From the NCBI RefSeq assembly GCF_018798885.1, contig NZ_CP076362.1:186001-250000 (forward strand): DNA of 64,000 nucleotides. The letters run 5' to 3'. Under the pieces are notes generated by a model. That model saw only the letters and a list, made by a program, of their open reading frames with translations. It made no database searches and was not told the origin of the DNA. The first letter of the stretch is position 1, and each line of letters starts with the position of its first letter. The DNA is from Gemmobacter fulvus (GTDB taxonomy: Bacteria; Pseudomonadota; Alphaproteobacteria; Rhodobacterales; Rhodobacteraceae). Below are positions 164-22,610 of this stretch, in pieces. The position numbers and the translations under genes are program-made.

Positions 164-1036
164 ATGCGGAATGTCACCATCGACAACGTCACCGACGTTG
201 TGATTTCGTCACTTGGCCAGACGACGCCGATCCCGGCACGGCAGCGGGAAATCATGGAGGCCCTGCTGCGCCACCTGCACGGTTTCTGCAAGGACGTGAA
301 CCTGACCCATGCCGAGTTTCTGGCCGCCTGCGATTATCTGGGCCGCGCCGGGGCGATCTGTTCGGACAAGCGGCAGGAATTCATCCTGCTGGGCGACATT
401 CTGGGCGTCGAGGTGCTGGTCGACATGCTGTCGAACCCGATCACCGGCGGCGAGACCATTTCGACCGTGCTGGGGCCGTTCTTCCGCGAAAATGCGCCGG
501 TGATGCCCAAAGGGGCCTCGACCGTGCAAAAGGCGTTCGACACGCAGGAAACCGTGCTGGTCGAGGGCTATATCCGCGACACCGAGGGCAATCCGATTGC
601 GGGCGCGATCATCGACGTGTGGGAAGATGCGCCGAACGGTCTGTATGAAAACCACGACCCCGAGCAGCCGGATTACAACCTGCGTGGCCGCTTTGAAAGC
701 GATGCAGACGGCCACTATGCCTTCCGCGCCATCCGCCCGGTGCCCTATCCGATCCCCGGCGACGAGACGGCGGGCGAGCTGATCCGCTTCATGGGCCATC
801 ACTGCATGCGCCCGGGCCATATTCACGTGATGGTGTCGCATGACGGCCACCGCCCGCTGATCTCGCAGATCTACGATGCGGAGAGCGCGCATCTGGACAA
901 TGACTCGGTCTTTGCGGTGAAGGCGGATCTGATCGGCGAGTTCAAGAAGGCGCCGGCAGGGGCCGACACCGATCTGACGCTGCGCTTTGATTTCGCACTG
1001 CCCCGGGCGGATGCCGCGCGCATGGCAGCCGAGTAA
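164..1036 (+). CDS. Intradiol ring-cleavage dioxygenase (catechol/hydroxyquinol 1,2-dioxygenase type)
   Basis: A 290-residue cytoplasmic Fe(III) enzyme that would open catechol or hydroxyquinol between the two hydroxyls, giving cis,cis-muconate or maleylacetate. An N-terminal helical linker domain (about 1-100) is followed by the intradiol beta-sandwich. The expected iron ligands are visible as Tyr161, Tyr195 (PVPYPIPGD), His219 and His221 (RPGHIHV). The stretches DKRQEFILL and VLGPFFRE read more like hydroxyquinol dioxygenases than classical CatA, while the next gene (muconate cycloisomerase) argues for catechol, so substrate is left open. The start is set by a strong GAGGAGGAGG site. A strong hairpin separates it from catB. 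Confidence 0.9.
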   Translation: MRNVTIDNVTDVVISSLGQTTPIPARQREIMEALLRHLHGFCKDVNLTHAEFLAACDYLGRAGAICSDKRQEFILLGDILGVEVLVDMLSNPITGGETISTVLGPFFRENAPVMPKGASTVQKAFDTQETVLVEGYIRDTEGNPIAGAIIDVWEDAPNGLYENHDPEQPDYNLRGRFESDADGHYAFRAIRPVPYPIPGDETAGELIRFMGHHCMRPGHIHVMVSHDGHRPLISQIYDAESAHLDNDSVFAVKADLIGEFKKAPAGADTDLTLRFDFALPRADAARMAAE

Positions 1037-1045
1037 GACAGAAGG

Positions 1046-1080
1046 GCGCGCCGCAGCCCCATCCGGGGCGTGCGGCGCGC
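1046..1080 (+). terminator. GC-rich intercistronic hairpin
   Basis: GCGCGCCGCAGCCCC, a 4-base ATCC loop, then its complement with one bulged G. It sits directly after the dioxygenase stop and before catB. No T-run follows, so it is probably a partial terminator or an mRNA-stabilising 3' end rather than a complete stop. Confidence 0.6.
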
Positions 1081-1120
1081 ATCGTTGACCGGCGCGCCTG
1101 TTGGCCGCCCTTGAAGGACC

Positions 1121-2302
1121 ATGCAGATGAACATGCCGGGCATTGCCGCGCCAAGCCATCCTATTGCCTTGGGCGATCTTGCCCGCGGGCGCGAGATTGT
1201 CGCCGTGGAAACCGTCATCGTCGACGTGCCCACCGCGCGGCAGCACCGGCTGTCAAACACCGAGATCACCGTGCAATCCTATGTCATCGTCAAGGTCGCG
1301 CTGGCCGATGGCACGCTGGGCTATGGCGAGGCCGCCACGCTGGGCGGGCCGCGTTGGGCCGAAGAAAGCGTCGAGGCGATCAAGGCCAATATCGACAGCT
1401 ATCTGGCCCCCGCCGTGCTGGGCCGGTCGGCCCTCTCGTTCGAGGCGAACCAGTTGGCGATGCAGATGGCGGCCAGTCGCAACAATGCCGCCCGCGGCGG
1501 CGTGGATGCGGCGCTGTTCGATGCGGCGGGCAAATCGCTGGGCCTGCCCACGCATCAGTTGCTGGGTGGCGCGCTGCGCGACCGGATCGAGGTGCTCTGG
1601 GCGCTGGCCTCGGGCGATGCCGATCAGGAGATCGAAGAGGCGCGGGCGAAGCTGGCCGCGCGCGAACATCGCCGCTTCAAGATCAAGCTGGGCTTTCACA
1701 GCCCCGCCGAGGACATGGCGCGCCTGGCCCGGATCGTGGCGGCCCTGCCGGGCTGCGAGATTGTCTGTGACGTCAATCAGGGTTGGTCAGAGGCGACGGC
1801 CATCCGTTATGTGCCGCAGCTGGCCGAGCTGGGGGTGGTGCTGATCGAACAGCCGCTGCGCCCCGGTCTTGCCGCCGCAACCGCCCGGGTGGCCGCGCGC
1901 AGCCCCATTCCGATCATGACCGATGAGGCGGCCTTTACCGGCCCCGAAATCGTGGCGCAGGCCATGGCCGGGGCGGGATCGGTCTATTCGCTGAAACTGG
2001 TGAAAAGCGGCGGGTTGATGGAGCTGAAGCGCGCCGCCGCCATCGCGCAGGCCTGCGGGATGGAGTTGTATGGCGGCTGTCTTTTGGAAACCGGGCTGGG
2101 GGCCGCTGCGCATCTGGCAGTGTTTTCCACCCTGCCGCGTCTGGAATGGGGTTGTGAACATTTCGGGCCGCGCATCGTGAAAACCGATCTGACCAATGGC
2201 GAGGTGGTGTTCAGGGATTTCCACATCCATTGCCCGCCGGGCCCCGGCCTTGGCGTGACGATCAACGAGACCGCGCTGCGGGCGCTGACACGGAAGGGAT
2301 GA
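1121..2302 (+). CDS. catB: Muconate cycloisomerase (enolase superfamily)
   Basis: A 393-residue enolase-superfamily enzyme that would close cis,cis-muconate to muconolactone in the cytoplasm. The superfamily catalytic set is present: KIK with Lys187 and Lys189, metal ligands Asp217 (CDVNQGW), Glu243 (LIEQPL) and Asp268 (MTDEA), the second base Lys295 (LKLVKSGG) and Glu323 (LETGLG). This pattern fits the muconate lactonizing subgroup rather than mandelate racemase. The start may be 1121 or 1127; GAAGGA is better spaced for 1127. It overlaps the next gene by 4 bases (ATGA). No catC (muconolactone isomerase) is found nearby. Confidence 0.87.
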   Translation: MQMNMPGIAAPSHPIALGDLARGREIVAVETVIVDVPTARQHRLSNTEITVQSYVIVKVALADGTLGYGEAATLGGPRWAEESVEAIKANIDSYLAPAVLGRSALSFEANQLAMQMAASRNNAARGGVDAALFDAAGKSLGLPTHQLLGGALRDRIEVLWALASGDADQEIEEARAKLAAREHRRFKIKLGFHSPAEDMARLARIVAALPGCEIVCDVNQGWSEATAIRYVPQLAELGVVLIEQPLRPGLAAATARVAARSPIPIMTDEAAFTGPEIVAQAMAGAGSVYSLKLVKSGGLMELKRAAAIAQACGMELYGGCLLETGLGAAAHLAVFSTLPRLEWGCEHFGPRIVKTDLTNGEVVFRDFHIHCPPGPGLGVTINETALRALTRKG

Positions 2303-2928
2303 CGATGCCGCTTTTGCATTGGTCGCCCCGCTCGCCCTATGTGCGCAAGGTGATGGTTGCCCTGCATGAAAAGGGGCTGGCCGGGCAGGTGGAAACCGTG
2401 CGCACCCATGCCGACCCGCTGATCCCGCATCCGGGGTTGATGGCGCTGAACCCCTTGTCCAAGATCCCGACGCTGGAGCTGGACGATGGCCGCCTGCTGT
2501 TCGACAGCCATGTGATCTGCCGCTGGGCCGACCGCAGCGGCGCTGTCGGGCCCCGCCTCTTCCCCGAGGATCTGCTGGCAGAGCGCGACGAGGCCCTGGG
2601 CACCGGCCTGCTGGATGTCGCGTTGCCCTGGCTGGTCGAGGTGCGGTTGCGCCCAGCCGCCCAGCGGTCTGACGACATGATCGCGGTCTATCGCACCAAG
2701 ATGAACCGCGTGGCCGACTGGCTGGAGGATCATGTGCCCGCGCTGGAGGCCCGCGCCTTCGACATCGGGCATCTGAGCATCGGCGTCGCCCTCTGTTATC
2801 TGGATTTCCGCTTTGAGGCCGAGGCTTGGCGCAAGGGCCGCCCGCGTCTGGCGGCATGGCACGCGGCCTTTGCCGCGCGGCCTTCGGTGCAGGCCACGGC
2901 CTTCCGCGACGATCCGCGCCCGACCTGA
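2299..2928 (+). CDS. Glutathione S-transferase family protein
   Basis: A 209-residue protein with an N-terminal thioredoxin-fold GST domain (SPRSPYVRKV near residue 8, the glutathione-site Ser region, and NPLSKIPTLELDDG near 52-65 with the conserved cis-Pro) and a helical C-terminal domain. It is translationally coupled to catB by an ATGA overlap, with an alternative ATG at 2305. Zeta-type GST-fold proteins can be isomerases of ring-cleavage products, for example maleylacetoacetate or maleylpyruvate isomerase. Its position where catC would be expected suggests, but does not show, an isomerase role. Confidence 0.8.
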   Translation: MTMPLLHWSPRSPYVRKVMVALHEKGLAGQVETVRTHADPLIPHPGLMALNPLSKIPTLELDDGRLLFDSHVICRWADRSGAVGPRLFPEDLLAERDEALGTGLLDVALPWLVEVRLRPAAQRSDDMIAVYRTKMNRVADWLEDHVPALEARAFDIGHLSIGVALCYLDFRFEAEAWRKGRPRLAAWHAAFAARPSVQATAFRDDPRPT

Positions 2929-2945
2929 CTAACCACCCGACCTGA

Positions 2946-3839
2946 CTAACCAAGCGTCTTGCGGGCGAATTTGCGGGTGATCTCCAGAAAGTTCATCACC
3001 TGCGGCGCGCGGTTGTCCAGCCGGGCATGGACGGTCAGCGCGGTGCCGGGATTGTCGCCCAGATAGGGCCGGTAGACCACGCCCGGCCGCTGCGTGCTCG
3101 ACACCGATTCCGGCACCACCGACAGGCCCACCCCGACCGACACCAGCGAAATCGCGCTTTGAAAATCCTGCGTCAGTTCCAGCTTGGCGGGGGTAAAGCC
3201 TTCGCGCGCGCAGATGTTCAGCACCACATCGGCATAACCGGGCCGCGGCCTGCGCGGATAGAGCACAAACACCTGATCTGCCAGATCGGCAAAGCGGATC
3301 TCGGGCAGGCTGGCCAGCCGCGAATTGTCGGGCAGGGCGAGGATCAGCTTTTCGCGGCACAGCAGTTCGTGGCGGAATTCGTCGTCATTCAGGGCCGGTC
3401 GGGCCACCGCCACGTCAATATCGCGGGCAATCAGCCCATGCGACAGTTCGGCATTGTTCATCGCCGACAGTGCCAGTTCCACATTCGGATAGAACGAGCG
3501 GTAGGATTTGATCAGCGTCGGCAGCAACCCGTGCGAGGCCGAGCCGACAAAGGCGATCCGCAATCGCCCGCCGCTGCCGCTGCCCACCAGCCGGGTGTCG
3601 CGGTAGGCGGCATCCAGACGCGACAGGATCTGCCGCGCGTGATCCTGCAACACCACGCCGGCCTGCGTCAGCCGTATCTGGCTGCGGCTGCGGTCGAACA
3701 ATTGCACGTCAAGATCGGTTTCCAGCGCGGCAATCTGCCGGGACAGCGGCGGTTGCGCCATGTCGAGCCGGGTGGCGGCGCGCCCGAAGTGCAATTCCTC
3801 GGCGACGGCCAGAAAGTATTTCAGGCGCTTGAACTCCAT
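2946..3839 (-). CDS. LysR-family transcriptional regulator (CatR/CatM-like)
   Basis: A 297-residue LysR protein: N-terminal winged helix-turn-helix (MEFKRLKYFLAVAEELHFGR onward, with AATRLDMAQPPLSRQI as recognition region) and a C-terminal inducer-binding domain. The QPPLSRQI pattern is typical of regulators of catechol and chlorocatechol genes. The start at 3839 is set by a GGGAGGGAAAGGG site just upstream. It is convergent with the catB/GST operon and divergent from the enol-lactonase at 3984, so that gene and the dioxygenase operon are its likely targets. The inducer, perhaps muconate, is inferred. Confidence 0.85.
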   Translation of the reverse strand: MEFKRLKYFLAVAEELHFGRAATRLDMAQPPLSRQIAALETDLDVQLFDRSRSQIRLTQAGVVLQDHARQILSRLDAAYRDTRLVGSGSGGRLRIAFVGSASHGLLPTLIKSYRSFYPNVELALSAMNNAELSHGLIARDIDVAVARPALNDDEFRHELLCREKLILALPDNSRLASLPEIRFADLADQVFVLYPRRPRPGYADVVLNICAREGFTPAKLELTQDFQSAISLVSVGVGLSVVPESVSSTQRPGVVYRPYLGDNPGTALTVHARLDNRAPQVMNFLEITRKFARKTLG

Positions 3840-3855
3840 CCCTTTCCCTCCCCGG

Positions 3856-3905
3856 AAACCCGTGTTGCGGGTTTGATACCGCAGGCGGCGATACCTTTGA
3901 GGTAT
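3856..3905. promoter_or_regulatory. Candidate LysR operators in divergent promoter
   Basis: Two perfect inverted repeats lie between the LysR gene and the enol-lactonase: AAACCCG-N5-CGGGTTT at 3856-3874 and ATACC-N5-GGTAT at 3891-3905. The second has the T-N11-A style of LysR boxes. Which one is the recognition site, and which a transcript hairpin, is not decided by sequence. Confidence 0.5.
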
Positions 3906-3983
3906 TGCATCACATGGCTGCGTGCATTGCCAGTGCGGCTGTGGCGCGGTTTGGTCGCGCAGCACGGCAAAAGGGGGGCTGAC

Positions 3984-4769
3984 ATGCGCATGATCCGATC
4001 CAACGGCATCTGGCTTCATTGCCGCGAGGATGGCCCGGCCACGGCGCCGCCGCTGTTGCTGATCAATTCATTGGGCACCGATCTGCGCATGTGGGATGCG
4101 GTGATGCCTGCGCTGTCGCAGGATTTCCGGGTGATCCGCTTTGACAAGCCGGGGCATGGCCTGTCGGAAACCGCGCCGCGCCCCTATCGGATCGACGGCT
4201 TGGCCGCTGATGCGCTGGCGGTGCTGGATGCCAGTGACGTGGCGGTGGCCGATGTGCTGGGCCTGTCGATCGGCGGGCAGATTGCGCTGTCCCTGGCGCT
4301 GAACCATCCCGAACGGGTGGGGCGGCTGGTGTTGTCGAACACGGCGGCGCGGATCGGCTCGGCGGCGATGTGGCAAGACCGGATCGCGGCGCTGGAACAG
4401 CAGGGCATCGCCGCGATGGCGGATGCGGTGCTGGAGCGCTGGTTCTCTGCCGCGTGGCGGGCCGGGAACCCCGGCGCGCTGGCAGGCTGGCGGGCGATGC
4501 TGTCGCGCACCGATCTGACCGGCTATCTGGGCTGTTGCGAGGCGCTGTCGGTGGCCGATCTGACCGCAGACTGCACCGCGCTGCGCCTGCCGGTGCATCT
4601 GATTGCCGGGGCCGAAGACGGGGCGACGCCACCGGCGCTGGTGCAGGCCACGGCGGATCTGATGCCGCAGGCGGCGCTGACCTGCCTGCCCGGGGTCGGG
4701 CATCTGCCCTGCATCGAGGATCCGGCAGGCTTTCTGGCGGTCTTGCGTGGGGCGTTGCCCACCCGCTGA
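3984..4769 (+). CDS. pcaD: 3-oxoadipate enol-lactonase (alpha/beta hydrolase), first copy
   Basis: A 261-residue alpha/beta hydrolase that would hydrolyse 3-oxoadipate enol-lactone to 3-oxoadipate. Conserved features are INSLGTDLRMW near residue 28, RFDKPGHGLS near 52, the nucleophile elbow GLSIGG with Ser95, the acid region AGAEDGATPP, and the catalytic His in GVGHLPCIE. The second enol-lactonase at 17880 has the same motifs, so both branches of the 3-oxoadipate pathway are separately equipped. The start at 3984 follows a GGGGGG site. Its own LysR gene is divergent. Esterase activity on another lactone remains possible. Confidence 0.85.
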   Translation: MRMIRSNGIWLHCREDGPATAPPLLLINSLGTDLRMWDAVMPALSQDFRVIRFDKPGHGLSETAPRPYRIDGLAADALAVLDASDVAVADVLGLSIGGQIALSLALNHPERVGRLVLSNTAARIGSAAMWQDRIAALEQQGIAAMADAVLERWFSAAWRAGNPGALAGWRAMLSRTDLTGYLGCCEALSVADLTADCTALRLPVHLIAGAEDGATPPALVQATADLMPQAALTCLPGVGHLPCIEDPAGFLAVLRGALPTR

Positions 4770-5209: not shown

Positions 5210-5682
5210 CACTGGACCTGGATCCAAGCACCGACCTGAGTTTCACCCGCACGCTGGCCGTGCCACGGCAGTTGATCTGGGAATGCTGGACCGAGCCGAA
5301 GCATATCCCGCATTTCTTCATCCCCGCGCCGCACAAGGTGACGGCGGTGGATATCGACCTGCGGGTCGGCGGGCGGTTCAACACCACCTTCGATGTGGAC
5401 GGTCATGTGATGGACAATCACGGCGTCTATCTGGAGGTGGTGCCGGACGAAAAGCTGGTGTTCACCGATACCTATACCGAAGGCTGGAAACCCGCGCCCG
5501 AGCCGTTCATGACCGCGATCCTGCTGCTGTCGGATGCGCCGGGCGGCGGCACAACCTATACGGCCATCGCCCGCCACCGCAACGAGGGCAGCCGCAAGTC
5601 GCATGAGGACATGGGGTTCTTCGATGGCTGGGGCACGGTGGTCACACAGCTGGAAGCCTATGCCAAGGGCCTGATGCCATGA
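5206..5682 (+). CDS. SRPBCC (AHSA1-type) domain protein
   Basis: A 158-residue START-like fold protein. FTRTLAVPRQLIWECWTEPK at the N-terminus and the later DLRVGGRFN and EDMGFFDGWGTVVTQLEAY segments are hallmarks of the AHSA1 family. These proteins bind hydrophobic ligands in a deep cavity; the ligand here cannot be told. It is the middle gene of an ArsR-SRPBCC-SRPBCC operon with ATGA overlaps at both ends, so it is co-translated with its neighbours. Confidence 0.85.
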   Translation: MTLDLDPSTDLSFTRTLAVPRQLIWECWTEPKHIPHFFIPAPHKVTAVDIDLRVGGRFNTTFDVDGHVMDNHGVYLEVVPDEKLVFTDTYTEGWKPAPEPFMTAILLLSDAPGGGTTYTAIARHRNEGSRKSHEDMGFFDGWGTVVTQLEAYAKGLMP

Positions 5683-6554
5683 CCGACCGCTTTGCCACCC
5701 TGACGTTCACGCGGCAGGTGGCAGCGCCACTCGCCACCCTGTGGCAGGCCTGGACGGCCCCCGCCGCGCGGGCGGTCTGGGCCGCGCCTGCGCCCACGGT
5801 CACGGTGGTCTTTCTGGAGGCGGACACGCGGGTGGGCGGGCGCGAAGTCTCGCTCTGCAAGCTTGAGGGCCAGCCCGACATCCGCTGTGACTGTGGCTGG
5901 CTGGATCTGGTGCCGCCGCAGCGCTGCGTGAATTACGAGGTGATCTCCTGCGAAGGTGTCACGCAATCCGCCGCCCTTGTGACCGCCGATTTCGTCCCTG
6001 CGGGGGAGGGCAGCCAGCTGGTGGTGACGGTGCAGCTTTCGTCGCTGGCGGCGGATATGCAGGCGGGCTACCGGCAGGGTTTTGGCGCCGGGCTCGACAC
6101 TCTGGCGCAGGTGGCCGACCGCACGATGGTGTTGCAGCGCAGGATCATGGCCCCCCGGCAGGTGGTCTGGGGCGCGTGGATGAACCCCGAAACCCTGCCG
6201 CGCTGGTGGGGGCCGGACGGGTTTTCGTGCCGCACAAAGCGCATCGACCTGCGGGCAGGCGGCGAATGGGTGTTTGACATGATCGCCCCCGATGGCACGG
6301 TGTTCCCCAACCACCACCGCTATGGCGAGGTGCGGGCCGAAGATCGGATCAGCTATGCGCTGCACTGGGGCGAGAACGGGCCGAAACACGCCGATGCCTG
6401 GGCGCTGTTCGAAGAGGCCGACGGGGCCACAACCGTCACGCTGGGCATGATCTTCAGCTCTGCCGCCGAGTTTCAGGAGGCCAAGGGTTTTGGCGCGATC
6501 GAGCTGGGGATGCAGACGCTGGGCAAACTCGCGCGCTTCGTTGGGGCCGCGTAG
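5679..6554 (+). CDS. Tandem SRPBCC (AHSA1-type) protein, two domains
   Basis: A 291-residue protein made of two AHSA1-like domains in one chain. Domain 1 (about 1-145) starts with LTFTRQVAAPLATLWQAWTA. Domain 2 (about 150-291) starts with LQRRIMAPRQVVWGAWMNPE and contains the usual RWWGPDGF and GAIELGMQTLGKLARFV elements. Domain 1 is degenerate around the WGP motif (AVWAAPAP). It is the last gene of the ArsR operon. A two-domain version suggests a larger or bipartite ligand pocket, but no function is assignable. Confidence 0.82.
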   Translation: MTDRFATLTFTRQVAAPLATLWQAWTAPAARAVWAAPAPTVTVVFLEADTRVGGREVSLCKLEGQPDIRCDCGWLDLVPPQRCVNYEVISCEGVTQSAALVTADFVPAGEGSQLVVTVQLSSLAADMQAGYRQGFGAGLDTLAQVADRTMVLQRRIMAPRQVVWGAWMNPETLPRWWGPDGFSCRTKRIDLRAGGEWVFDMIAPDGTVFPNHHRYGEVRAEDRISYALHWGENGPKHADAWALFEEADGATTVTLGMIFSSAAEFQEAKGFGAIELGMQTLGKLARFVGAA

Positions 6555-6563
6555 GCCGATCTT

Positions 6564-7379
6564 CTACGCCCGGCCTGCCGCGCGCAAAAGCCGCCGCGCG
6601 CCATCCAGCGCGCGGGCCGCAACGGCACGGCTGCCTTTTTCGGCCTGAAGCGCCGACATGGGCACCTCCAACGCCACCGGCACCTGTGGCGGCAGGCGCG
6701 ACAGGATGGCCGGCAGGTCGATCTGCCCAGAGCCGGGTGGCAGCCGTTCGGCGCGGCCCGTGTGCAGCAGCTCTTCGGTCGAATAGGGCGGATGGACCGC
6801 CGCATCGCAGAGATGCAGGAACGGCAGCCGCGCGGGAGGCAGGCCCTCCAGATCGGCCAGCGCACTGGCAGAGCGATCAAAATGCAGCGTGTCGATCAGG
6901 ATACCGACATCGGCGATGCCCGTGCGTTCGACCACAGCCCGCGCGGCAGAGAGGCCGGGCACATTGGTCCAGGGAAAGAATTCCAAGGCGCAGGTCAGGC
7001 CAAACGGGTGGGCCAGCCTGTGCAGCGCGGCAAGATTGTCGGACAGCCGCGCAAGATCGGGGTCATACGGGGCGCAGATGACATGGCGCGCGCCAAGGGC
7101 CGCGCCCGCGTCCAGAAAGGGCAGCAGGGCTTCGGGGCGGAACTCGGGCGTCAACCGCACGAACTCGATGTCATTGACGGTGATGCCGGTCGCGTCCAGC
7201 GCCGCGCGGGTGTCGCGCAGCGCCGCCGGATCCGCGTGCAAGGCATAGCCGGGGGTGGTGTCTGTCACCCGGATCAGCCGCAGCCCGACGCGGTCATAGC
7301 CCAGCTCTGCCGCGAGCCGGATCATTCGGGGTGGCGGCAGGTCCAGCACTGTCAGGTGGGCAAGCGAGATCGGGGTCAT
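6564..7379 (-). CDS. Sugar phosphate isomerase/epimerase family TIM-barrel protein
   Basis: A 271-residue AP-endonuclease-2-like TIM barrel. Metal-site elements can be seen: FVRLTPEF, LEFFPWTN (Glu), GILIDTLHFDRS (Asp/His), PFLHLCDAA (His) and a late VALEVPMS (Glu). Members include xylose isomerase-like enzymes, inosose dehydratases and 3-dehydroshikimate dehydratases. It is the last gene of an IclR-FAD dehydrogenase-TIM operon with ATGA coupling to the flavoprotein. That pairing suggests dehydration or isomerisation of a product of the flavoenzyme; the substrate is unknown. Confidence 0.8.
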   Translation of the reverse strand: MTPISLAHLTVLDLPPPRMIRLAAELGYDRVGLRLIRVTDTTPGYALHADPAALRDTRAALDATGITVNDIEFVRLTPEFRPEALLPFLDAGAALGARHVICAPYDPDLARLSDNLAALHRLAHPFGLTCALEFFPWTNVPGLSAARAVVERTGIADVGILIDTLHFDRSASALADLEGLPPARLPFLHLCDAAVHPPYSTEELLHTGRAERLPPGSGQIDLPAILSRLPPQVPVALEVPMSALQAEKGSRAVAARALDGARRLLRAAGRA

Positions 7380-14172: not shown

Positions 14173-15029
14173 CCGAGACCATCCGCCCCACGCCGATACG
14201 CCTTGGCCTGATCGGCGACAATATCGCCAAATCGCAGTCGCCCCGGCTGCACCGTCTGGCCGGGGCACAAAACGGGCGGCGCGTCACCTATGACCAACTG
14301 GTTCCCGCCGAACTGGGCAAGGATTTCGATGCGCTGTTTGCCGATGTTGCCGCCGCCGACTATCGCGGCGTCAACGTGACCTACCCCTACAAGGAACGTG
14401 CGGCGGCAAAGGTCATCGTCGAGGATCCGCTGGTGCGGGCCATCGGCGCGGTGAATACCGTGGTGTTTGACGACGGCGGTCCGCATGGCTTCAACACCGA
14501 TTATTCGGGGTTCATGGCCGCCTATCGCCGGGTCCGGGGCGACGCCGCCCCCGGCCCGGTGCTGATGATCGGCGCAGGTGGGGTTGGCAGGGCGGTGGCC
14601 TTCGGGCTTGTGGCGCTCGGGCTGGAGGATATCCGCATCGTCGACCGTGATCTGCCCAAAGCCAGGGCGCTGGCCGCGGCTTTGGTGGCCGCCCGCCCCG
14701 GCCTTGTCGCACGGACCGGCACCGAAGCGGTAACGCTGGCGGCTGGGGCGGCGGGCATCATCAACTGCACCCCTGTCGGCATGGTCGGCTATGACGGCAC
14801 GCCGCTGGCCCGCACCGCGCTGACCCAGGCCGCATGGGTGTTCGACGCGGTCTATACCCCGGTCGATACGCAATTCCTGCGCGATGCCGCCGCCGAAGGG
14901 CTTCAGGTCATTTCCGGCTATGAGCTGTTCTTCGGTCAGGGCGTGGACGCCTGGGCCATCTTCACCAATCTGCCGCTGGACGAAGCGCGGATGCGCCAGG
15001 AGCTGGCCGAAGGAAAGGACGTGACATGA
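14169..15029 (+). CDS. aroE: Shikimate/quinate dehydrogenase
   Basis: A 286-residue NAD(P)-linked dehydrogenase interconverting shikimate and 3-dehydroshikimate (or quinate and 3-dehydroquinate). Seen: substrate serines in AKSQSPRLH (Ser22, Ser24), catalytic Lys75 in NVTYPYKE, Asp111 in FNTDYSGF, Rossmann loop GAGGVG (135-140), and NCTPVGM. Its place between TctA and a 3-dehydroshikimate dehydratase, both with ATGA overlaps, marks it as catabolic rather than the biosynthetic AroE. No 3-dehydroquinase is linked, so shikimate is favoured over quinate. Confidence 0.88.
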   Translation: MTETIRPTPIRLGLIGDNIAKSQSPRLHRLAGAQNGRRVTYDQLVPAELGKDFDALFADVAAADYRGVNVTYPYKERAAAKVIVEDPLVRAIGAVNTVVFDDGGPHGFNTDYSGFMAAYRRVRGDAAPGPVLMIGAGGVGRAVAFGLVALGLEDIRIVDRDLPKARALAAALVAARPGLVARTGTEAVTLAAGAAGIINCTPVGMVGYDGTPLARTALTQAAWVFDAVYTPVDTQFLRDAAAEGLQVISGYELFFGQGVDAWAIFTNLPLDEARMRQELAEGKDVT

Positions 15030-16906
15030 AAACCTCGATCGCGACCGTCTCGATTTCCGGCACTTTCGCCGAAAAACTGGCGGCCATCGCCACCGCCGGT
15101 TTCGATGGCATCGAAATCTTCGAGCAAGATTTCATCGCGTCGGATTTCACCCCGGCCGAGGTGGGCCGCATGGTGCGCGATCACGGGCTGGAGATCACGC
15201 TGTTCCAGCCGTTCCGCGATTTTGAAGGCCTGCCCGAACCGCACCGCAGCCGCGCCTTTGCCCGCGCGGCGCGCAAGTTCGATCTGATGAACCAGCTGGG
15301 CACCGATCTGGTGCTGGTCTGCTCCAGCGTCCACCCCGCCGCGATGGGCGGGATTGACCGCATGGCCGCAGATTTTGCCGAACTTGGCGATCTGGCGCAA
15401 AGCCATGGCATCCGCGTCGGCTTCGAGGCGCTGGCCTGGGGTCGCCATGTCAACGACCACCGGGACGCCTGGGAGGTGGTGCGCCGCGCCGATCACCAGA
15501 ATATCGGGCTGATCCTCGACAGTTTTCACACGCTGGGCCGCAAGATCGACCCCGACACCATCCGGCGTATTCCGGGCGACAAGATCTTTTTCGTGCAACT
15601 GGCCGACGCCCCGGCCATCGACATGGACCTGCTGTATTGGTCGCGCCACTTCCGCAACATGCCGGGCGAGGGTGATCTGGATGTGACCGGCTTCATGCGG
15701 GCGGTGCTCGCCACCGGCTATTCCGGCCCTCTGAGCCTTGAGATTTTCAACGATCAGTTCCGCGCGGGCCTGCCGCGTCTGGTCGCGCAGGATGGCCATC
15801 GCAGCCTGATTTCGCTGATGGACCGGGTGCGCCGATCCGAACCCACCGTGCCGGTCGCCTTGCCGGAGTTTCCGGCGGCGGCCCCGGTGGAGCGGGTGGA
15901 ATTCATCGAATTTGCCACCTCTGCCGAGGATGCGCCGGGGCTGGAAGCGCTGTTGGCGGCAACCGGCTTTGCCCGCGCGGGCAGCCATGTGTCAAAGCCG
16001 GTCACGCTGTGGCGGCAAGGCGGCGTCAATGTGCTGGTGAACACCGACAGCACCGGCTTTGCCCATACCTCGTTTGTGGCGCATGGCACCACCGTGTCCG
16101 AAGTGGCGTTGATGGTGCCCGATGCACAGGCAACCCATGCGCGGGCGCTGGCCCTGCTGGCGCGGGATCACCGCCAGCCCGGCCAGCCGGACGAGCTGGA
16201 GATCCCGGCCATCCGCGGGGTGGGCGGCAGCATTCTGCGGCTGCTGGATTCAGGCTCTGATCTGGCGCGCATCTGGTCGGTGGATTTCCGCAGCGATGCG
16301 GCGGCGCTGGAGGGGGCGGGCCTGACCGGCATCGACCATCTGGGTCAGACCATGGCCTATGACGAAATGCTCAGCTGGGCGCTGTTCTACGCCTCGATCT
16401 TTGATGCAAAGAAAGCGCCGATGGTGGATGTGGCCGATCCTGACGGATTGGTGCGCAGTCAGGCGGTGCAATCGGGCGGGCTGCGCATCACCCTGAACGG
16501 GGCCGAGGCGCGGCGCACCCTTGCCGGCCGCTTTGTCGAGGAGACCTTTGGCGCATCGGTGCAGCACATCGCCTTTGCCACCGTCGACATCTTTGCCACG
16601 GCGGCTCGGCTGGCCGAGCGCGACTTTCCGCTGTTGCAGATCGGCGAGAATTATTATGACGATGTCGAGGCCCGCTTTGGCCTTGATCCGGCGCTTGTGG
16701 CGCGGATGCGCGCCGCCAAGGTGCTCTATGACGAAGACGCGGGCGGGCAGTTCTTTCAACTCTACTCGGCCCCGCGCCCCGACGGGTTCTTTCTGGAGAT
16801 CGTGCAGCGGCAGGGCAACTATCTGGGCTATGGCGCGCCCAACGCGCCCTTCCGCATCGCGGCGCAGAAACGCTATGCCCGGCCCGCCGGGATGCCAAGG
16901 CTTTAG
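15026..16906 (+). CDS. quiC: 3-dehydroshikimate dehydratase fused to HPPD-like VOC domains
   Basis: A 626-residue two-part enzyme. Residues 1-280 form a sugar-isomerase-like TIM barrel (GFDGIEIFEQDF, FEALAWGRHVNDH, GLILDSFHTLG, FFVQLADAP, LSLEIFND) that would dehydrate 3-dehydroshikimate to protocatechuate. Residues about 290-626 form vicinal-oxygen-chelate domains related to 4-hydroxyphenylpyruvate dioxygenase, and retain the metal triad positions His438 (IDHLGQ), His514 (VQHIAFA) and Glu591 (FFLEIV). The same fusion is known from Pseudomonas QuiC1-type enzymes. It links the TTT operon to the pca operon that follows. The stop overlaps the convergent pcaQ stop. Confidence 0.88.
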   Translation: MKTSIATVSISGTFAEKLAAIATAGFDGIEIFEQDFIASDFTPAEVGRMVRDHGLEITLFQPFRDFEGLPEPHRSRAFARAARKFDLMNQLGTDLVLVCSSVHPAAMGGIDRMAADFAELGDLAQSHGIRVGFEALAWGRHVNDHRDAWEVVRRADHQNIGLILDSFHTLGRKIDPDTIRRIPGDKIFFVQLADAPAIDMDLLYWSRHFRNMPGEGDLDVTGFMRAVLATGYSGPLSLEIFNDQFRAGLPRLVAQDGHRSLISLMDRVRRSEPTVPVALPEFPAAAPVERVEFIEFATSAEDAPGLEALLAATGFARAGSHVSKPVTLWRQGGVNVLVNTDSTGFAHTSFVAHGTTVSEVALMVPDAQATHARALALLARDHRQPGQPDELEIPAIRGVGGSILRLLDSGSDLARIWSVDFRSDAAALEGAGLTGIDHLGQTMAYDEMLSWALFYASIFDAKKAPMVDVADPDGLVRSQAVQSGGLRITLNGAEARRTLAGRFVEETFGASVQHIAFATVDIFATAARLAERDFPLLQIGENYYDDVEARFGLDPALVARMRAAKVLYDEDAGGQFFQLYSAPRPDGFFLEIVQRQGNYLGYGAPNAPFRIAAQKRYARPAGMPRL

Positions 16907-17805
16907 GGCGGGGTGTTGTCGTGGCACAGGTGGATCAGCTGGTTCAACCCTGGCACCACTGGCCCCGCCTGTCTGCGCGTGATGCCCACCGACCCCGACA
17001 GAAAGCGGGCCCCGGTGGGCAGAACCACCATATCGCCCCGGTCCACCTCATCGGCCACCACCCCGCGCGAGATGAACCAGACCGCATCCGACCCGGCCAG
17101 AATACCCCGGCCCACCGCAAGGGCGGCTGTCTCGAACGCCGGGCGCAGGGCGGGCAGGCCAAGCGTCGCCAGAAAATCGTTTACCGCGCGGCGGATCAAG
17201 GCGCCTTCCGGCGGCAGGATCAGCGGCACCGCCTGCAACAGGCCGGGCAGGGACTGTGCCCGCAGCGGATGCCCGGCGCGGGCGACCAGCACGATTTCCT
17301 CTTCATAGAGATGCTCGAACGCCAGTCCGGCCATTTCGCCCGCCACCGGCATCCGCCCGATCATCAGGTCGATCTCATCCTCGCGCAGCAGGCGCAGCAG
17401 ATAGGAATGTGGCCCCGTCTCGATCTTCAGCAGTGTTTCGGGATGGGCCTCGCGGAAGCGCAGTGCCACGCGTGGGAACAGCCGGGGCGCGGCGGTGGGC
17501 AGGATGCCGACGCGGATGCTGTCACCACTGCCGCCCGGACGCAGCGCCGCAACACCATCCTCCAGCGATTGCAGCCCCAGACTCGCGTGGCGGCGAAACA
17601 GCGCGCCCGCTTCGGTCAGCACCAGCCGCCGCTTTTCGCGGCGAAACAGCGGGGTGGCCAGCAGATCCTCCATTTCGGCCAGGGTGCGGCTCAGGGCGGG
17701 CTGGCTGATGCCATGCCGCCGCGCGACGGAGGACAGGCTGCCGTCGGCGGCGATGTCCAGAAAGGCGCGGATGTGGCGCAGCTTGAGGGCCGGGTGCATA
17801 ATCAT
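16903..17805 (-). CDS. pcaQ: LysR-family regulator of protocatechuate genes
   Basis: A 300-residue LysR protein whose N-terminus (LKLRHIRAFLDIAADGSLSS, GISQPALSRTLAEMEDLL, FRREKRRLVLTEAG) is characteristic of PcaQ. It is divergent from pcaD-C-H-G, the standard alphaproteobacterial arrangement in which PcaQ activates with 3-carboxymuconate or carboxymuconolactone as inducer. The 74-base divergent gap contains no clear copy of the published ATAACC-N4-GGTTAA type site, so the operator may differ. The start at 17805 could instead be the second Met two codons on. Confidence 0.87.
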   Translation of the reverse strand: MIMHPALKLRHIRAFLDIAADGSLSSVARRHGISQPALSRTLAEMEDLLATPLFRREKRRLVLTEAGALFRRHASLGLQSLEDGVAALRPGGSGDSIRVGILPTAAPRLFPRVALRFREAHPETLLKIETGPHSYLLRLLREDEIDLMIGRMPVAGEMAGLAFEHLYEEEIVLVARAGHPLRAQSLPGLLQAVPLILPPEGALIRRAVNDFLATLGLPALRPAFETAALAVGRGILAGSDAVWFISRGVVADEVDRGDMVVLPTGARFLSGSVGITRRQAGPVVPGLNQLIHLCHDNTPP

Positions 17806-17879: not shown

Positions 17880-18668
17880 ATGATGCAAGCTTTGAAACGT
17901 CCGTTCGGCAGTCTTCATGTGCAGGTCGATGGCCCCGAAGCCGCGCCTGCCGTGGTTTTCGCCAATTCGCTGGGCACCGATCTGCGGCTCTGGGACCGGG
18001 TACTGCCGGTGCTGCCGCAGGGGTTGCGTTATATCCGTTATGACAAGCGCGGGCATGGCCTGTCCGCGCTGGGGGGCGGCGCAGAGATTGGCGACCATGC
18101 AGAGGACGCGATTGCCGTGATCGAAGGCGTTGCGCGTGGCCCGGTGGTTTTTGTCGGTCTGTCGATTGGCGGGTTGATCGGGCAGGTGGTCGCCAGCCGC
18201 CGCCCCGATCTGATCCGCGCCATCGTGCTGTCGAATACGGCCGCGAAACTGGGCACGGCCGAAAGCTGGCAGGCGCGGATTCAGGCCGTGCAGGAGGCTG
18301 GGCTGGACAGCATTGCCGATGCGGTGATGGAGCGCTGGTTCGCCCCCGCCTTTCGCGCCACGCCCGAGCTGGGCCTTTGGCGTGCCATGCTGGCCCGCAC
18401 GCCCGCGCAGGGCTATGCCGCCGCCTGCGCGGCACTGGCCGGGGCCGATCAGACCGAGGCGACGCGGGCGCTGCGCCTGCCCGCGCTGGTGATCGCCGGA
18501 TCGGAGGACGGGGCCAGCCCGAGTGCCACCGTCCAGGCCACCGCCGCGCTGATCGCAGGGGCGGCCTTCCACGAAATCGCCGGGGCGGGGCATCTGCCCT
18601 GCGTCGAAACCCCTGCCGCCTGGGCCGCCCTCGCCGCACCCTTCCTGAAAGCACATGCCCATGTCTGA
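17880..18668 (+). CDS. pcaD: 3-oxoadipate enol-lactonase, second copy
   Basis: A 262-residue alpha/beta hydrolase and first gene of the pca operon. It shares ANSLGTDLRLW, YDKRGHGLS, nucleophile elbow GLSIGG (Ser95), AGSEDGASPS and GAGHLPCVE with the copy at 3984. It would convert 3-oxoadipate enol-lactone from PcaC to 3-oxoadipate. The start has a GGGAG site; a second Met follows immediately. It overlaps pcaC by 14 bases if pcaC starts at 18655. Confidence 0.9.
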   Translation: MMQALKRPFGSLHVQVDGPEAAPAVVFANSLGTDLRLWDRVLPVLPQGLRYIRYDKRGHGLSALGGGAEIGDHAEDAIAVIEGVARGPVVFVGLSIGGLIGQVVASRRPDLIRAIVLSNTAAKLGTAESWQARIQAVQEAGLDSIADAVMERWFAPAFRATPELGLWRAMLARTPAQGYAAACAALAGADQTEATRALRLPALVIAGSEDGASPSATVQATAALIAGAAFHEIAGAGHLPCVETPAAWAALAAPFLKAHAHV

Positions 18669-19056
18669 GCTGACCGAAACGGGCATGAAAACCCGTCGCC
18701 GCGTGCTGGGGGATGCCCATGTCAACCGCGCCGAAACGGCCAAGACCGGGGCCGATGCCCCGTTTCAGGCGCTGATCACCGATGCGGCCTGGGGCCATGT
18801 CTGGAGCCGCGACACCATCACCCTGCGCGAGCGCAGCATGCTGACCATCGCGCTGTTGGCCGGGCTTGGCAATGATCACGAACTGGCCATGCACATCCGC
18901 GCCACGGCCAATACCGGGGCCAGTCAGACCGATGTGATGGAGGCGCTGCTGCATGTCGCCATCTATGCCGGTGTGCCGCGCGCCAACCATGCCATCAGGA
19001 TCGCCAAGGACACATTCGCCACCATGGCCACCACCAGCACCGGGGAGACAGAATGA
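18655..19056 (+). CDS. pcaC: 4-carboxymuconolactone decarboxylase
   Basis: A 133-residue AhpD/CMD-fold protein, the normal size for stand-alone PcaC. Visible family elements are [17 protein letters not shown] at the N-terminus, [20 protein letters not shown] and the [11 protein letters not shown]...[16 protein letters not shown] segment. It decarboxylates 4-carboxymuconolactone to the enol-lactone used by PcaD. The start may be 18655 or 18661 (third codon also ATG). It overlaps pcaH by 4 bases. Confidence 0.92.
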
Positions 19057-19775
19057 AACCCGCCGAGTTCTATCAACGCGACCGCCTGTGGCAGCCGCCC
19101 GCCCTGACGCCGGACTACAAGACCAGCGTGGCGCGCAGCCCGCGTCTGGCGATGCTGTCGTTGCAAGGATCCCTGTCCGATATCACCGGGCCGACCTTTG
19201 GCCACAGCGACATTGATCCGATCGACAATGACCTGATCAAGAACTACGCCAAGACAGGCGACCCGGTGGGGGAACGCATCATCGTCCATGGCCGGGTGCT
19301 GGATGAAAACGGGCGCGGCGTGCCGAACACGCTGGTCGAGATCTGGCAGGCCAATGCGGGCGGGCGCTACCGGCACAAGAAGGACAGCTATCTTGCGCCG
19401 GTCGATCCGAATTTTGGCGGCTGTGGCCGCACCCTGACCGATGATCAGGGCTATTACTTCTTCCGTACGATCAAGCCGGGTGCCTACCCCTGGCGCAACT
19501 GGGTCAACAACTGGCGGCCCGCGCATATCCATGTGTCGGTGTTCGGAACCGCATTTGCGCAGCGGCTGATCACCCAGATGTATTTCGAGGGGGATCCTCT
19601 GATCGCCAAATGCCCCATCGTCGCCACCATCCCCGATCCCCGCGCGATTGATCAGCTGATCGCGCCGCTCGACATGAACGCGGCCATCCCGTTGGATTGC
19701 CTGGCCTACAAGTTCGACATCGTGTTGCGCGGTCGGCGCTCCACCCTTTTTGAAAACCGGCTGGAGGGGAACTGA
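19053..19775 (+). CDS. pcaH: Protocatechuate 3,4-dioxygenase beta subunit
   Basis: A 240-residue catalytic subunit. Non-haem Fe(III) ligands are evident: Tyr106 (GGRYRHKKD), Tyr145 (PGAYPWRNW), His158 and His160 (RPAHIHVSV). The [16 protein letters not shown] stretch is diagnostic of PcaH. With PcaG it forms the ring-cleaving complex that turns protocatechuate into 3-carboxy-cis,cis-muconate. It is coupled to pcaC by ATGA and lies one base from the pcaG start. Confidence 0.95.
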
Positions 19776-19776
19776 C

Positions 19777-20388
19777 ATGGCGCAGCCGCTGAATTACCTC
19801 AAGGAATCCGCGTCGCAGACGGCGGGGCCCTATGTGCATATCGGCCTCGCGCCCGGGGCTGCGGGGTTTGACATCTACCGGCAGGAACTGGGGCAGGTGA
19901 TCGCGGGGCCGGAGACGCCCGGCGAACGGATCCGGGTCGAAGGCATGGTGCTGGATGGCACGGGCGCGCCGGTCAAGGATGTCTTGCTGGAAGTCTGGCA
20001 GGCAGATGCGGCGGGCATCTATCCCCACTCCGAAGACCCGCGCGCCGCCGAGGTGGCCCCCGGCTTTCGCGGCTGGGGCCGGGTGATCACCGATTTCGAC
20101 ACCGGCCTCTGGGGGTTTGATACCATCAAGCCCGGCGTCGTGATGGGCCGCAACGGGCGGCCCATGGCGCCGCATGTCACGCTCTGGATCGTTGCGCGCG
20201 GCATCAACATCGGCCTCAACACCCGGATGTATTTCGAGGACGAGGACAACAGCGCCGATCCGGTGCTCAATCTGGTCGAGCAGGCCCCGCGCCGCGACAC
20301 CCTTCTGGCGCGCAGGGTCAAGCCCGGCCTCTATCGTTTCGACATCCGTCTGCAAGGCGATGGCGAAACCGTGTTCATGGATATCTGA
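19777..20388 (+). CDS. pcaG: Protocatechuate 3,4-dioxygenase alpha subunit
   Basis: A 203-residue structural partner of PcaH with the same intradiol beta-sandwich but without the iron ligand set. SASQTAGPYVHIGLAP at the start, VLLEVWQADAAGIY and FDTIKPG in the middle and LYRFDIRLQGDGETVFMDI at the end are standard PcaG landmarks. The start at 19777 is set by GGAGGGGA upstream. The BKACE gene follows after 3 bases. Confidence 0.94.
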   Translation: MAQPLNYLKESASQTAGPYVHIGLAPGAAGFDIYRQELGQVIAGPETPGERIRVEGMVLDGTGAPVKDVLLEVWQADAAGIYPHSEDPRAAEVAPGFRGWGRVITDFDTGLWGFDTIKPGVVMGRNGRPMAPHVTLWIVARGINIGLNTRMYFEDEDNSADPVLNLVEQAPRRDTLLARRVKPGLYRFDIRLQGDGETVFMDI

Positions 20389-20391
20389 CTC

Positions 20392-21231
20392 ATGGAAAAT
20401 CCCTGCATCATCTGTGTGGCCATCACGGGCTCCTTGCCGCGCAAGGCCGACAATTCGGCGGTGCCGATCACAATCGCCGAACAGGTCGAATCCACCCATG
20501 CTGCGTTCGAGGCCGGGGCGACCATCGCGCATTGCCATGTGCGCAATGAGGACGAGACGCCCTCTTCGGACCCCGAGAAGTTCGCGGCGCTGAAAGAGGG
20601 GCTGGAAAAGCACTGCCCCGGCATGATCGTGCAACTGTCCACCGGCGGGCGTTCCGGCGCGGGGCAGACGCGCGGCGGCATGTTGCCGCTGCGGCCCGAT
20701 ATGGCGAGCCTGTCGGTGGGGTCGAACAACTTTCCCACCCGCGTCTACGAGAATCCGCCCGATCTCGTTGATTGGCTGGCCGGCGAGATGCGCAGCCATG
20801 GCGTGAAGCCCGAGATCGAGGCGTTCGACCTGTCGCATATCCTGAAAGCCAAGGAGATGTGGGACAAGGGCCAGATCGTTGACCGCCCCTATGTGCAATT
20901 CGTGATGGGGGTGAAGAACGCGATGCCCGCCGACCGCGAGGTGTTCAACTATTATATCCAGACCGTGCACCGGCTGTTTGGCGCAGATGCGCCATGGTGT
21001 GCGGCGGGGATCGGGCCGAACCAGATCGTGCTGAATGATTGGGCGGTGTCCTCCGGCGGCCATGCCCGGACCGGGCTGGAAGATAACGTGCGTCTGGACA
21101 AGACGCGGCTTGCCCCCTCCAATGCGACCCTCGTGCAGCGTGTGGTGGCGCTTTGCGAAAAATACGAGCGCCCCGTTGCCACCTGGCGGCAGGCCCGCGC
21201 CATCCTTGGCCTGAAGCCCGTCAGCGCCTAG
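20392..21231 (+). CDS. Beta-keto acid cleavage enzyme (BKACE, DUF849), probable 3-oxoadipate cleavage
   Basis: A 279-residue TIM-barrel Zn enzyme of the 3-keto-5-aminohexanoate cleavage (Kce) family. The zinc ligands match Kce: His47 and His49 in AHCHVRNEDE and Glu230 in TGLEDN; QLSTGGRSG and FVMGVKNAMPA are further family marks. BKACEs condense a beta-keto acid with acetyl-CoA to give acetoacetate and a shortened acyl-CoA. It sits 3 bases after pcaG and before pcaB, while pcaI, pcaJ and pcaF are missing, so 3-oxoadipate is the natural substrate guess, with products succinyl-CoA and acetoacetate. The family call is firm; the substrate is inferred. Confidence 0.88.
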   Translation: MENPCIICVAITGSLPRKADNSAVPITIAEQVESTHAAFEAGATIAHCHVRNEDETPSSDPEKFAALKEGLEKHCPGMIVQLSTGGRSGAGQTRGGMLPLRPDMASLSVGSNNFPTRVYENPPDLVDWLAGEMRSHGVKPEIEAFDLSHILKAKEMWDKGQIVDRPYVQFVMGVKNAMPADREVFNYYIQTVHRLFGADAPWCAAGIGPNQIVLNDWAVSSGGHARTGLEDNVRLDKTRLAPSNATLVQRVVALCEKYERPVATWRQARAILGLKPVSA

Positions 21232-21281: not shown

Positions 21282-22610
21282 ATGCCCGCCGCCCCCGCCG
21301 ATTCCCAGATCTACGGTCACCTGTTTGGTGACGCGGACACCGCCCGCCTGTTCTCGGACAGTGCGGAAATCCGTGCCATGCTGTTGGTGGAAGGGGCGCT
21401 GGCGCGGGTGCAGGGGGCGCTTGGCGTGATCCCCGCCGAGGCCGCCGCCTTCATCGACCGCGCCTCGCAAGAGGTGGTGATCGACCCGAGCGCGCTTGCC
21501 GCCGAAACCGCGCTGAATGGCGTGCCGGTGCCCGCGCTGCTGGCGGCGTTTCGCAAGGCCGCAGGCGCGCCCGAACCGATGCAATATCTGCATTGGGGCG
21601 CCACCAGTCAGGACATCATGGACACCGGGCTTGCCCTGCGGCTGCGCCCGATGCTGGCGCATTGGCAGGGGCGGTTCGACGCGCTGCTGGTGCGGCTGGG
21701 CCAACTTGCCGAGGACACGGCGACCCTACCGATGACGGGCCGCACCTATGGTCAGGCGGCGACACCCACCAGTTTCGGTGCGGTCGTTGCGGGCTGGGGC
21801 TGGCCGGTGCTGGAGCGGCGGCAGCATTTGGCCGGGCTGTGTGACAGCCTGCTGAAAGTGTCCTTGTCGGGGGCGGCGGGCACGCTGTCGGCGATGGGGC
21901 AGGACGGCCCGGCGGTGCGGGCCGCGCTTGCCACCGAACTCGGTCTCGCGGACCCCGGCCACAGCTGGCACAGCGACCGGTCCGGCCTGGGGCAGCTCGC
22001 CGCCTTTGCCGCAGGGCTGGCCGGCAGTCTGGGTAAGCTGGGCGAGGATGTCATTCTGCTCTGCCAGTCGGGCATTGCCGAGGTGACGCTGGGCGGGGCC
22101 GGCGGCGGATCGTCGACGATGCCGCAGAAGCAGAACCCGGTTGCCCCTTCGGCGCTGGTCGCGTTGGCCCGGCATGTCATCGGGCTTGCGGCACTTGTGC
22201 AGGGGGCCGCGCTGCACCGCCAGCAACGCGACGGGGCCGCATGGTTCGGCGAATGGCTGGCGCTGCCGCAACTGTGCATCTGCACCGGGCGGATGCTGAC
22301 ACTGGCGCAGGATCTGATGGCGACCCTGACCCCGGTGAATGCCGCCATGGCGCGTGCCTTGGAGGAAGGCAACGGCCTGATCCATGCCGAGGCGCTGAGC
22401 TTTGCTCTGGCCGAACGGATGCCGCGCCCCGACGCGCAGGCATTGGTCAAGCAGATGTGTGCCGAGGCCACGGCCAGCGGCACGCCGCTGCTGACACTCG
22501 CCGCGCAGCGCTTTCCGCATCTCGCCGGGCAGCAGGGTCTGGCCGCCAGCGGCCTTGGTCAAGCCCCCGCCGAGGCGCGTGCCTTCGCCGCGCGGGTGCG
22601 GGAGGGCTGA
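21282..22610 (+). CDS. pcaB: 3-carboxy-cis,cis-muconate cycloisomerase
   Basis: A 442-residue fumarase/aspartase-superfamily enzyme. The superfamily signature GGSSTMPQKQNP lies near residue 275, with MQYLHWGATSQDIMDT near 100 and MTGRTYGQAATPTSFG near 150, as in PcaB. It lactonises 3-carboxymuconate to 4-carboxymuconolactone, the PcaC substrate. It is the last gene of the pca operon, 50 bases after the BKACE gene, and is somewhat shorter in its tail than adenylosuccinate lyases, in line with CMLE proteins. Confidence 0.92.
   Translation: MPAAPADSQIYGHLFGDADTARLFSDSAEIRAMLLVEGALARVQGALGVIPAEAAAFIDRASQEVVIDPSALAAETALNGVPVPALLAAFRKAAGAPEPMQYLHWGATSQDIMDTGLALRLRPMLAHWQGRFDALLVRLGQLAEDTATLPMTGRTYGQAATPTSFGAVVAGWGWPVLERRQHLAGLCDSLLKVSLSGAAGTLSAMGQDGPAVRAALATELGLADPGHSWHSDRSGLGQLAAFAAGLAGSLGKLGEDVILLCQSGIAEVTLGGAGGGSSTMPQKQNPVAPSALVALARHVIGLAALVQGAALHRQQRDGAAWFGEWLALPQLCICTGRMLTLAQDLMATLTPVNAAMARALEEGNGLIHAEALSFALAERMPRPDAQALVKQMCAEATASGTPLLTLAAQRFPHLAGQQGLAASGLGQAPAEARAFAARVREG

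Follow-up and report, generated by a model that had tools for sequence, protein, structure and literature searches.

A probable 3-oxoadipate-cleaving BKACE enzyme in the protocatechuate operon of Gemmobacter fulvus, in a genome that also holds pcaRIJF

We find, in the protocatechuate operon of Gemmobacter fulvus, a gene for a BKACE enzyme (DUF849/PF05853) that in all likelihood cleaves 3-oxoadipate with acetyl-CoA, in a genome (4.68 Mb, 7 contigs, completeness 100) that also carries pcaRIJF on another contig. A wider reading, in which most protocatechuate-branch genera of the Rhodobacteraceae end the pathway with BKACE and a SCOT-type CoA transferase and not with PcaIJF, in which their clusters are self-contained and plasmid-transferable, and in which the present strain has both endings on different contigs and under different regulators, seems to us about evenly poised between right and wrong. 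The operon lies in a window of 64,000 nucleotides (the whole stretch analysed, C2:186001-250000), and its genes and upstream neighbours are listed here with their model scores and cut-offs:

14181..15029, + strand: quinate/shikimate dehydrogenase-like protein (NF009201, 231.4, just below 235)
15026..16906, + strand: QuiC-like 3-dehydroshikimate dehydratase (NF042435, 654 bits over 616 aa, below the cut-off of 1200)
16903..17805, - strand: PcaQ-like LysR regulator, divergent from pcaD (TIGR02424, best family, 278.2, below 303.8)
17880..18668, + strand: pcaD, 3-oxoadipate enol-lactonase (TIGR02427, 291.5 vs 255.85)
18655..19056, + strand: pcaC, 4-carboxymuconolactone decarboxylase (TIGR02425, 180.3 vs 155.7)
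19053..19775, + strand: pcaH (TIGR02422, 374.9 vs 296.4)
19777..20388, + strand: pcaG, protocatechuate 3,4-dioxygenase alpha subunit (TIGR02423, 243.2 vs 126.25)
20392..21231, + strand: BKACE (DUF849/PF05853), predicted 3-oxoadipate:acetyl-CoA acetyltransferase type, 279 aa (NF053568)
21282..22610, + strand: pcaB, 3-carboxy-cis,cis-muconate cycloisomerase-like (TIGR02426, best family, 310.7, below the cut-off of 355.75)

An earlier note on this DNA had described the order pcaD-C-H-G-[DUF849]-pcaB, and this order is confirmed, with PcaD, PcaC, PcaH and PcaG scoring over their NCBIfam cut-offs and PcaB having its best family below the cut-off; genes that form 3-oxoadipate (pcaD-C-H-G and the pcaB-like gene) flank BKACE. 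The pcaG frame is open from 19750, with a likely ATG at 19777, and the BKACE gene begins, as the note had also stated, 3 bases past the pcaG stop (20392 against 20388). Because PcaQ-, QuiC- and shikimate dehydrogenase-like genes lie upstream (each below its cut-off), the cluster plausibly leads from quinate/shikimate to protocatechuate and on to 3-oxoadipate, with the QuiC-like dehydratase as the enzyme that would form protocatechuate. The statement that no CoA transferase or thiolase is encoded in the 64 kb also stands for the two models used, PF01144 (CoA transferase) and TIGR01930 (thiolase), neither of which has a match in the window, and the window's operon is without a SCOT-type CoA-transferase gene. 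RepC (PF03428), the sole replication family searched, matches C4 and C5 and gives no mark of a plasmid on C2. A second possible 3-oxoadipate-forming set lies at 164-4769 of the window (+ strand) and could also supply BKACE or PcaIJF; it comprises an intradiol dioxygenase (164-1036, which matches three catechol/chlorocatechol models, each below cut-off), a muconate-type cycloisomerase (1121-2302; TIGR02534, 381 vs 335) and an enol-lactonase-like domain at residues 330-575 of the frame 3027-4769 (TIGR02427, 295.5 vs 255.85).

The BKACE protein matches the NCBIfam equivalog model NF053568 with 491 bits against a cut-off of 350 (141 above it), over positions 2-273 of 274, and PF05853 with 301 bits; because NF053568 bears the name '3-oxoadipate:acetyl-CoA acetyltransferase' and the score is above its cut-off, the chemistry put forward in the earlier note is well supported. 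The zinc ligands His47, His49 and Glu230, correctly read there as intact, form the His-x-His plus Glu set of the BKACE fold and are invariant in the best 80 relatives (80/80) and in both genomic paralogs, and with cut-off passed and ligands conserved the protein appears not to differ from NF053568 in any respect that we could find. A further 24 polar residues are kept in at least 98% of the best 80 relatives and are absent from both paralogs; K18, R94 and R117 belong to these, and we would guess that one of the three binds the distal carboxylate. The nearest solved chains (3fa5, 3chv and 3no5) are strong full-length matches and were deposited without a named function. Compared with six close relatives the gene has a dN/dS of 0.07-0.10: it is intact, in the operon and under purifying selection. 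The genome has two other BKACEs, at 5901-6830 (-) of locus L019 and 5598-6512 (-) of L020. On NF053568 this pair of paralogs yields scores of 165 and 182 bits; one of them passes the 3,5-dioxohexanoate model (454 vs 430) and adjoins an aminotransferase-like gene, and the other adjoins 3-hydroxyacyl-CoA/carnitine dehydrogenase-like and acyl-CoA dehydrogenase-like genes (neighbours named by eye).

In the route that we propose, the zinc-dependent BKACE would swap acyl groups, converting 3-oxoadipate and acetyl-CoA to succinyl-CoA and acetoacetate, and would close a quinate/shikimate-to-protocatechuate-to-3-oxoadipate module on the 425-kb contig. A SCOT-type succinyl-CoA:3-oxoacid CoA transferase (scoAB, at about 643 kb on C1) would then turn acetoacetate and succinyl-CoA into acetoacetyl-CoA and succinate, and a thiolase would convert acetoacetyl-CoA and CoA to two acetyl-CoA. 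Relative to PcaIJ and PcaF the order would be swapped, with C-C cleavage first and CoA transfer second, and generic ketone-body enzymes would stand in for 3-oxoadipate-specific ones, leaving the module independent of host pcaIJF. The sum of BKACE, ScoAB and thiolase is 3-oxoadipate + CoA -> succinate + acetyl-CoA, the same net conversion as that of the canonical pair, whereas in the latter CoA transfer precedes C-C cleavage and the intermediate is 3-oxoadipyl-CoA, not acetoacetate. The earlier note had envisaged a shortened pathway end; because a CoA transferase and a thiolase are still required to activate and cleave acetoacetate, and the net reaction is equal, the route is re-ordered but no shorter, save where storage or assimilation takes up acetoacetyl-CoA. 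The predicted reaction itself is supported by the NF053568 match, by the pca or other intradiol-dioxygenase genes in 69 of the 80 best loci, by operons with SCOT genes and by growth of Methylobacterium extorquens as given in the available part of PMC12379598. The literature searched, which did not include Bastard 2014, yielded no enzyme assay of this protein or a close relative.

The earlier note had further implied that the organism as a whole lacks pcaIJF, which is not confirmed: in a profile search of the contigs, pcaR, pcaI, pcaJ and pcaF are found side by side on C1 (3.38 Mb), near 2,022,693-2,026,209, with these scores:

C1 set: pcaI (TIGR02429, 342 bits vs 128.5)
C1 set: pcaJ (TIGR02428, 294 vs 243.55)
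C1 set: pcaF (TIGR02430, 646 vs 597)
C1 set: divergent pcaR/pcaU-type regulator (TIGR02431, 327.5 vs 284.75)

The subfamily models TIGR02429 and TIGR02428 take in ScoA and ScoB as well, and pcaI and pcaJ are named by score, by adjacency to pcaF and pcaR, and by distance from ScoAB. The second CoA-transferase pair is scoAB, whose ScoA scores 325.5 bits to 3cdk and 281.8 to 3dlx (which we take to be human SCOT), against 196 and 162 for PcaI, and is by this comparison far closer than PcaI to succinyl-CoA:3-ketoacid CoA transferases. Given pcaRIJF and scoAB on C1, the strain holds the canonical ending, BKACE and candidate acetoacetate-using enzymes together, and BKACE would work side by side with PcaIJF. 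A pathway variant without PcaIJF is consequently what the operon and window present and not what the whole genome presents; the operon was rejected as proof of PcaIJF loss in this strain, and since pcaRIJF is present BKACE need not carry flux here. Functional, protocatechuate-induced pcaIJF elsewhere had been named beforehand as the observation that would tell against the proposal, and part of it, the presence of the genes, is found on C1.

The genomic surroundings of BKACE were compared in the best 80 of at least 547 confirmed matches from 84,980 species genomes, ranked by similarity to the window protein; because loci were chosen in this way, the contexts of more distant BKACE members fall outside the sample. 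The 80 loci are mostly from Rhodobacterales, and also include Bradyrhizobium (L052) and Bosea (L094). The nearest queried upstream gene is pcaG in 50 of the 80, its match ending no more than 60 bp from the BKACE match in 49 of those 50, and the nearest queried downstream gene is pcaB in 31. Buchan and colleagues are said to have described in 2004 an ORF that immediately follows pcaG and is conserved in eight Roseobacter isolates, with no assigned function at that time, and this ORF is in all probability the BKACE gene. Of the 80 loci, 69 contain pca genes or another intradiol-dioxygenase set: pcaHG is present in 51 and other pca genes in 2; a different intradiol-dioxygenase cluster, which would likewise make 3-oxoadipate, in 14; a hydroxyquinol-type dioxygenase with a maleylacetate reductase-like gene in one (by eye; NCBIfam gives no close name); and a weak catechol-type dioxygenase match with a cycloisomerase-like match in one. 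The queries used found no 3-oxoadipate-forming gene in 11 of the 80, at least one of which (L085) ends at a contig edge.

Several single loci deserve mention. In L058, L065 and L069 a 3-oxoadipate-type BKACE (near 10001) lies close to urease-like genes (by eye) and directly after a TIM-barrel-like gene; the queries used detect no aromatic genes in these loci, and the BKACE copy of L069 (9100-9939) has no match among NCBIfam families at E up to 1e-10. The BKACE match of L084 contains a stop and was retained in the counts. Among the family genomes described below, matches with one in-frame TGA occur in each of G024, G036, G045 and G138, the last two of which have another listed match without TGA; such frames may be pseudogenes or contain sequence errors.

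A CoA-transferase subunit A match lies near BKACE in 16 of the best 80 loci, and in 15 of these it is of the SCOT (acetoacetate) type, with 76-91% identity to the ScoA of the window genome and 39-45% to its PcaI (the latter in the 13 loci that gave an alignment). In 11 of the 15, 0-33 bp separate the end of the BKACE match from the start of the ScoA frame; in L082, L091 and L092 ScoA comes after pcaB, and L074 gave no aligned start. Only L061 (Paracoccus siganidrum) differs, with PcaI-type transferase genes and a whole pcaRIJF set beside its pca-BKACE operon. Operons on two annotated plasmids, chosen by name, display the SCOT arrangement in full: pP88_d of Phaeobacter inhibens, mobilizable by PLSDB, carries pcaC-H-G-BKACE-CoA transferase A-B-pcaD-pcaB (L106 7280-12989), and plasmid IV of Paracoccus aminovorans (L107 625-9673) has the window's gene order plus a transferase pair between BKACE and a lyase gene at the place of pcaB. 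Their transferase subunits A have 85% and 84% identity to ScoA against 40% and 41% to PcaI, and no thiolase gene is among the adjacent features listed for either. By these identities the transferase pair in BKACE operons is assigned to the ScoAB type, and some operons would thereby carry the next enzyme for acetoacetate; a SCOT gene in BKACE operons is what the BKACE reaction predicts. We found no description of this pairing in the available parts of the literature searched, Bastard 2014 not being among it.

Because a host would need only generic acetoacetate enzymes, such aromatic clusters would be self-contained and plasmid-transferable, and independence from 3-oxoadipate-specific host enzymes may suit clusters on mobile replicons. 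A relative (E up to 1e-80) is found in 82 of 72,556 plasmid records, of which 63 are predicted to be non-mobilizable, 12 mobilizable and 7 conjugative, and this high non-mobilizable share does not favour the mobile-replicon idea.

Across the family we surveyed 199 genomes with a completeness of 95% or more, each from a different genus: 146 carry a 3-oxoadipate-type BKACE over cut-off, 129 pcaH, 133 a PcaF/PaaJ-type thiolase and 41 a PcaI-type subunit, the last by a gap in scores at a cut of our own, set on this family (at least 309.9 bits for PcaI-type, at most 267.5 for the rest), below which a CoA transferase could also act on 3-oxoadipate. A PcaI-type gene is present in 25 of 119 genomes with both pcaH and BKACE, the window genome being one of them, versus 7 of 10 with pcaH and without BKACE (Fisher p 0.002, kinship of genera not corrected), and hence absent from 94 of 119 versus 3 of 10. 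Two genomes whose BKACE has an in-frame TGA and no second listed match (G024, G036) are kept among the 119, and excluding both gives 92 of 117. A listed thiolase match lies within 4 kb of the PcaI-type gene in at least 27 of the 41 genomes, and counting only thiolase-linked PcaI-type genes among the matches listed gives 15 of 119 versus 5 of 10 (p 0.008). BKACE is within 4 kb of pcaH in at least 77 of the genomes that have both (positions listed for 111 of the 119), and occurs without pcaH in 27 family genomes. Since PcaI-type genes are missing from 94 of the 119, BKACE is probably sufficient in other genomes; the earlier suggestion that it replaces pcaIJF is not borne out for the window genome, with its pcaRIJF on another contig, and is plausible for most of the family.

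Thiolase was rejected as a marker of pcaIJF, TIGR02430 not separating PcaF from PaaJ, and the pcaI/scoA model took its place. Of the 119 genomes, 87 have a PcaF/PaaJ-type thiolase, which we discount as evidence of pcaIJF because the stronger TIGR02430 match of our genome (711 bits, C1 2.569 Mb) sits between PaaX-like and PaaB-like frames (by eye). In a class-wide sample of 241 genomes, PcaI-type genes were counted by hand in pcaH-bearing genomes outside the family, at a cut of 296 bits and with no clear score gap, in 0 of 5 with BKACE and 14 of 42 without; the cut probably misses PcaI in other orders, because 28 of those 42 also have no match above it. Two family genomes (G013, G052) have pcaH and a PcaF-type thiolase within 6 kb of each other and neither a PcaI-type gene nor BKACE over cut-off.

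These observations may be explained in other ways. BKACE could have 3-oxoadipate activity and yet be a passenger or a backup, with PcaIJF under PcaR carrying nearly all the protocatechuate flux, a reading that we consider possible if rather doubtful. It draws on the contiguous pcaRIJF of C1, every model of which is over its cut-off, and on the retention of a PcaI-type gene in 25 of the 119 genomes, but fits poorly with an intact gene placed 3 bp after pcaG in the operon and held under purifying selection, and with the 94 genomes that have no PcaI-type gene to carry such flux. That BKACE instead cleaves another beta-keto dicarboxylate, such as methyl- or hydroxy-3-oxoadipate from substituted protocatechuates, while 3-oxoadipate goes to PcaIJF, is very improbable: the equivalog score, the same 94 genomes and the linkage to several intradiol-dioxygenase routes all argue against it, although the family is reported as promiscuous in the accessible text of PMC4922564, and in 11 of the best 80 loci the stretch examined is without a 3-oxoadipate-forming gene. 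To a reading in which the protein is of Kce type, with 3-keto-5-aminohexanoate as its substrate, we attach almost no weight. That product name does stand in most of the 25 plasmid records listed, and the fold family is shared, but the protein reaches only 234.5 bits on the Kce model NF052387 (cut-off 382), and its Leu15 aligns with Kce Glu14, the residue that, according to the available part of PMC10470551, binds the 5-amino group of the lysine-pathway substrate. Cleavage of 3-oxoadipate with acetyl-CoA remains our preferred reading of the BKACE protein.

The use of BKACE in place of PcaIJ/PcaF is already proposed in those parts of two reports that were accessible (2022 and 2025), an earlier one (2019) suggests a beta-ketoadipate cleavage enzyme, and because of these proposals the kind of system is already known. 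What was available of PMC6449761 (2019) puts forward a COG3246 protein, from the CatM/BenM regulon of Ralstonia eutropha H16, as a possible beta-ketoadipate cleavage enzyme with homologs beside the protocatechuate 3,4-dioxygenase genes pcaHG; unlike ours, that protein belongs to the catechol branch of a betaproteobacterium. Excerpts of PMC8963497 (2022) describe Methylobacterium clusters that lack pcaIJF and have DUF849 placed after pcaG and before pcaB, credit the predicted beta-ketoadipate activity of DUF849 to Bastard 2014, and consider as another possibility that pcaIJF is encoded outside the cluster, as it is in the window genome. The accessible sections of PMC12379598 (2025) label the gene kce, draw the bypass, and report that M. 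extorquens PA1 grows on protocatechuate after transfer of pcaHGBL and kce (and vanABK), the transferred kce being the M. nodulans homolog; in those sections we found neither a strain that lacks just kce nor an experiment that excludes host enzymes. As far as these two sources go, the Methylobacterium cluster shares with ours the position between pcaG and pcaB, the lack of pcaIJF in the cluster and the enzyme proposed for PcaIJ/PcaF, whereas our strain adds pcaRIJF on another contig, upstream quinate/shikimate-type genes and a PcaQ-like regulator. Beta-ketoadipate is among the substrate groups of the BKACE family tabulated in the part of PMC4922564 at hand. A similar release of acetoacetate by a BKACE-family enzyme, whose gene is clustered with those for an acetoacetate CoA transferase and a thiolase homolog, is found in the phloroglucinol pathway of Clostridium scatologenes (partial text of PMC10470551), where in contrast the substrate is 3,5-dioxohexanoate (triacetate) and the route anaerobic. 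What the present analysis adds is the family-wide counts and the SCOT pairing.

If the wider reading is true, a major route for lignin- and plant-derived carbon would, in a large part of a family abundant in sea and soil, not end as in the textbooks, and reconstructions that seek pcaIJF would call such genomes incomplete. Engineers would have a one-gene ending, with acetoacetate activation still required. Acetoacetate is an entry to polyhydroxybutyrate and the ethylmalonyl-CoA route, and in these bacteria aromatic catabolism would be tied to it.
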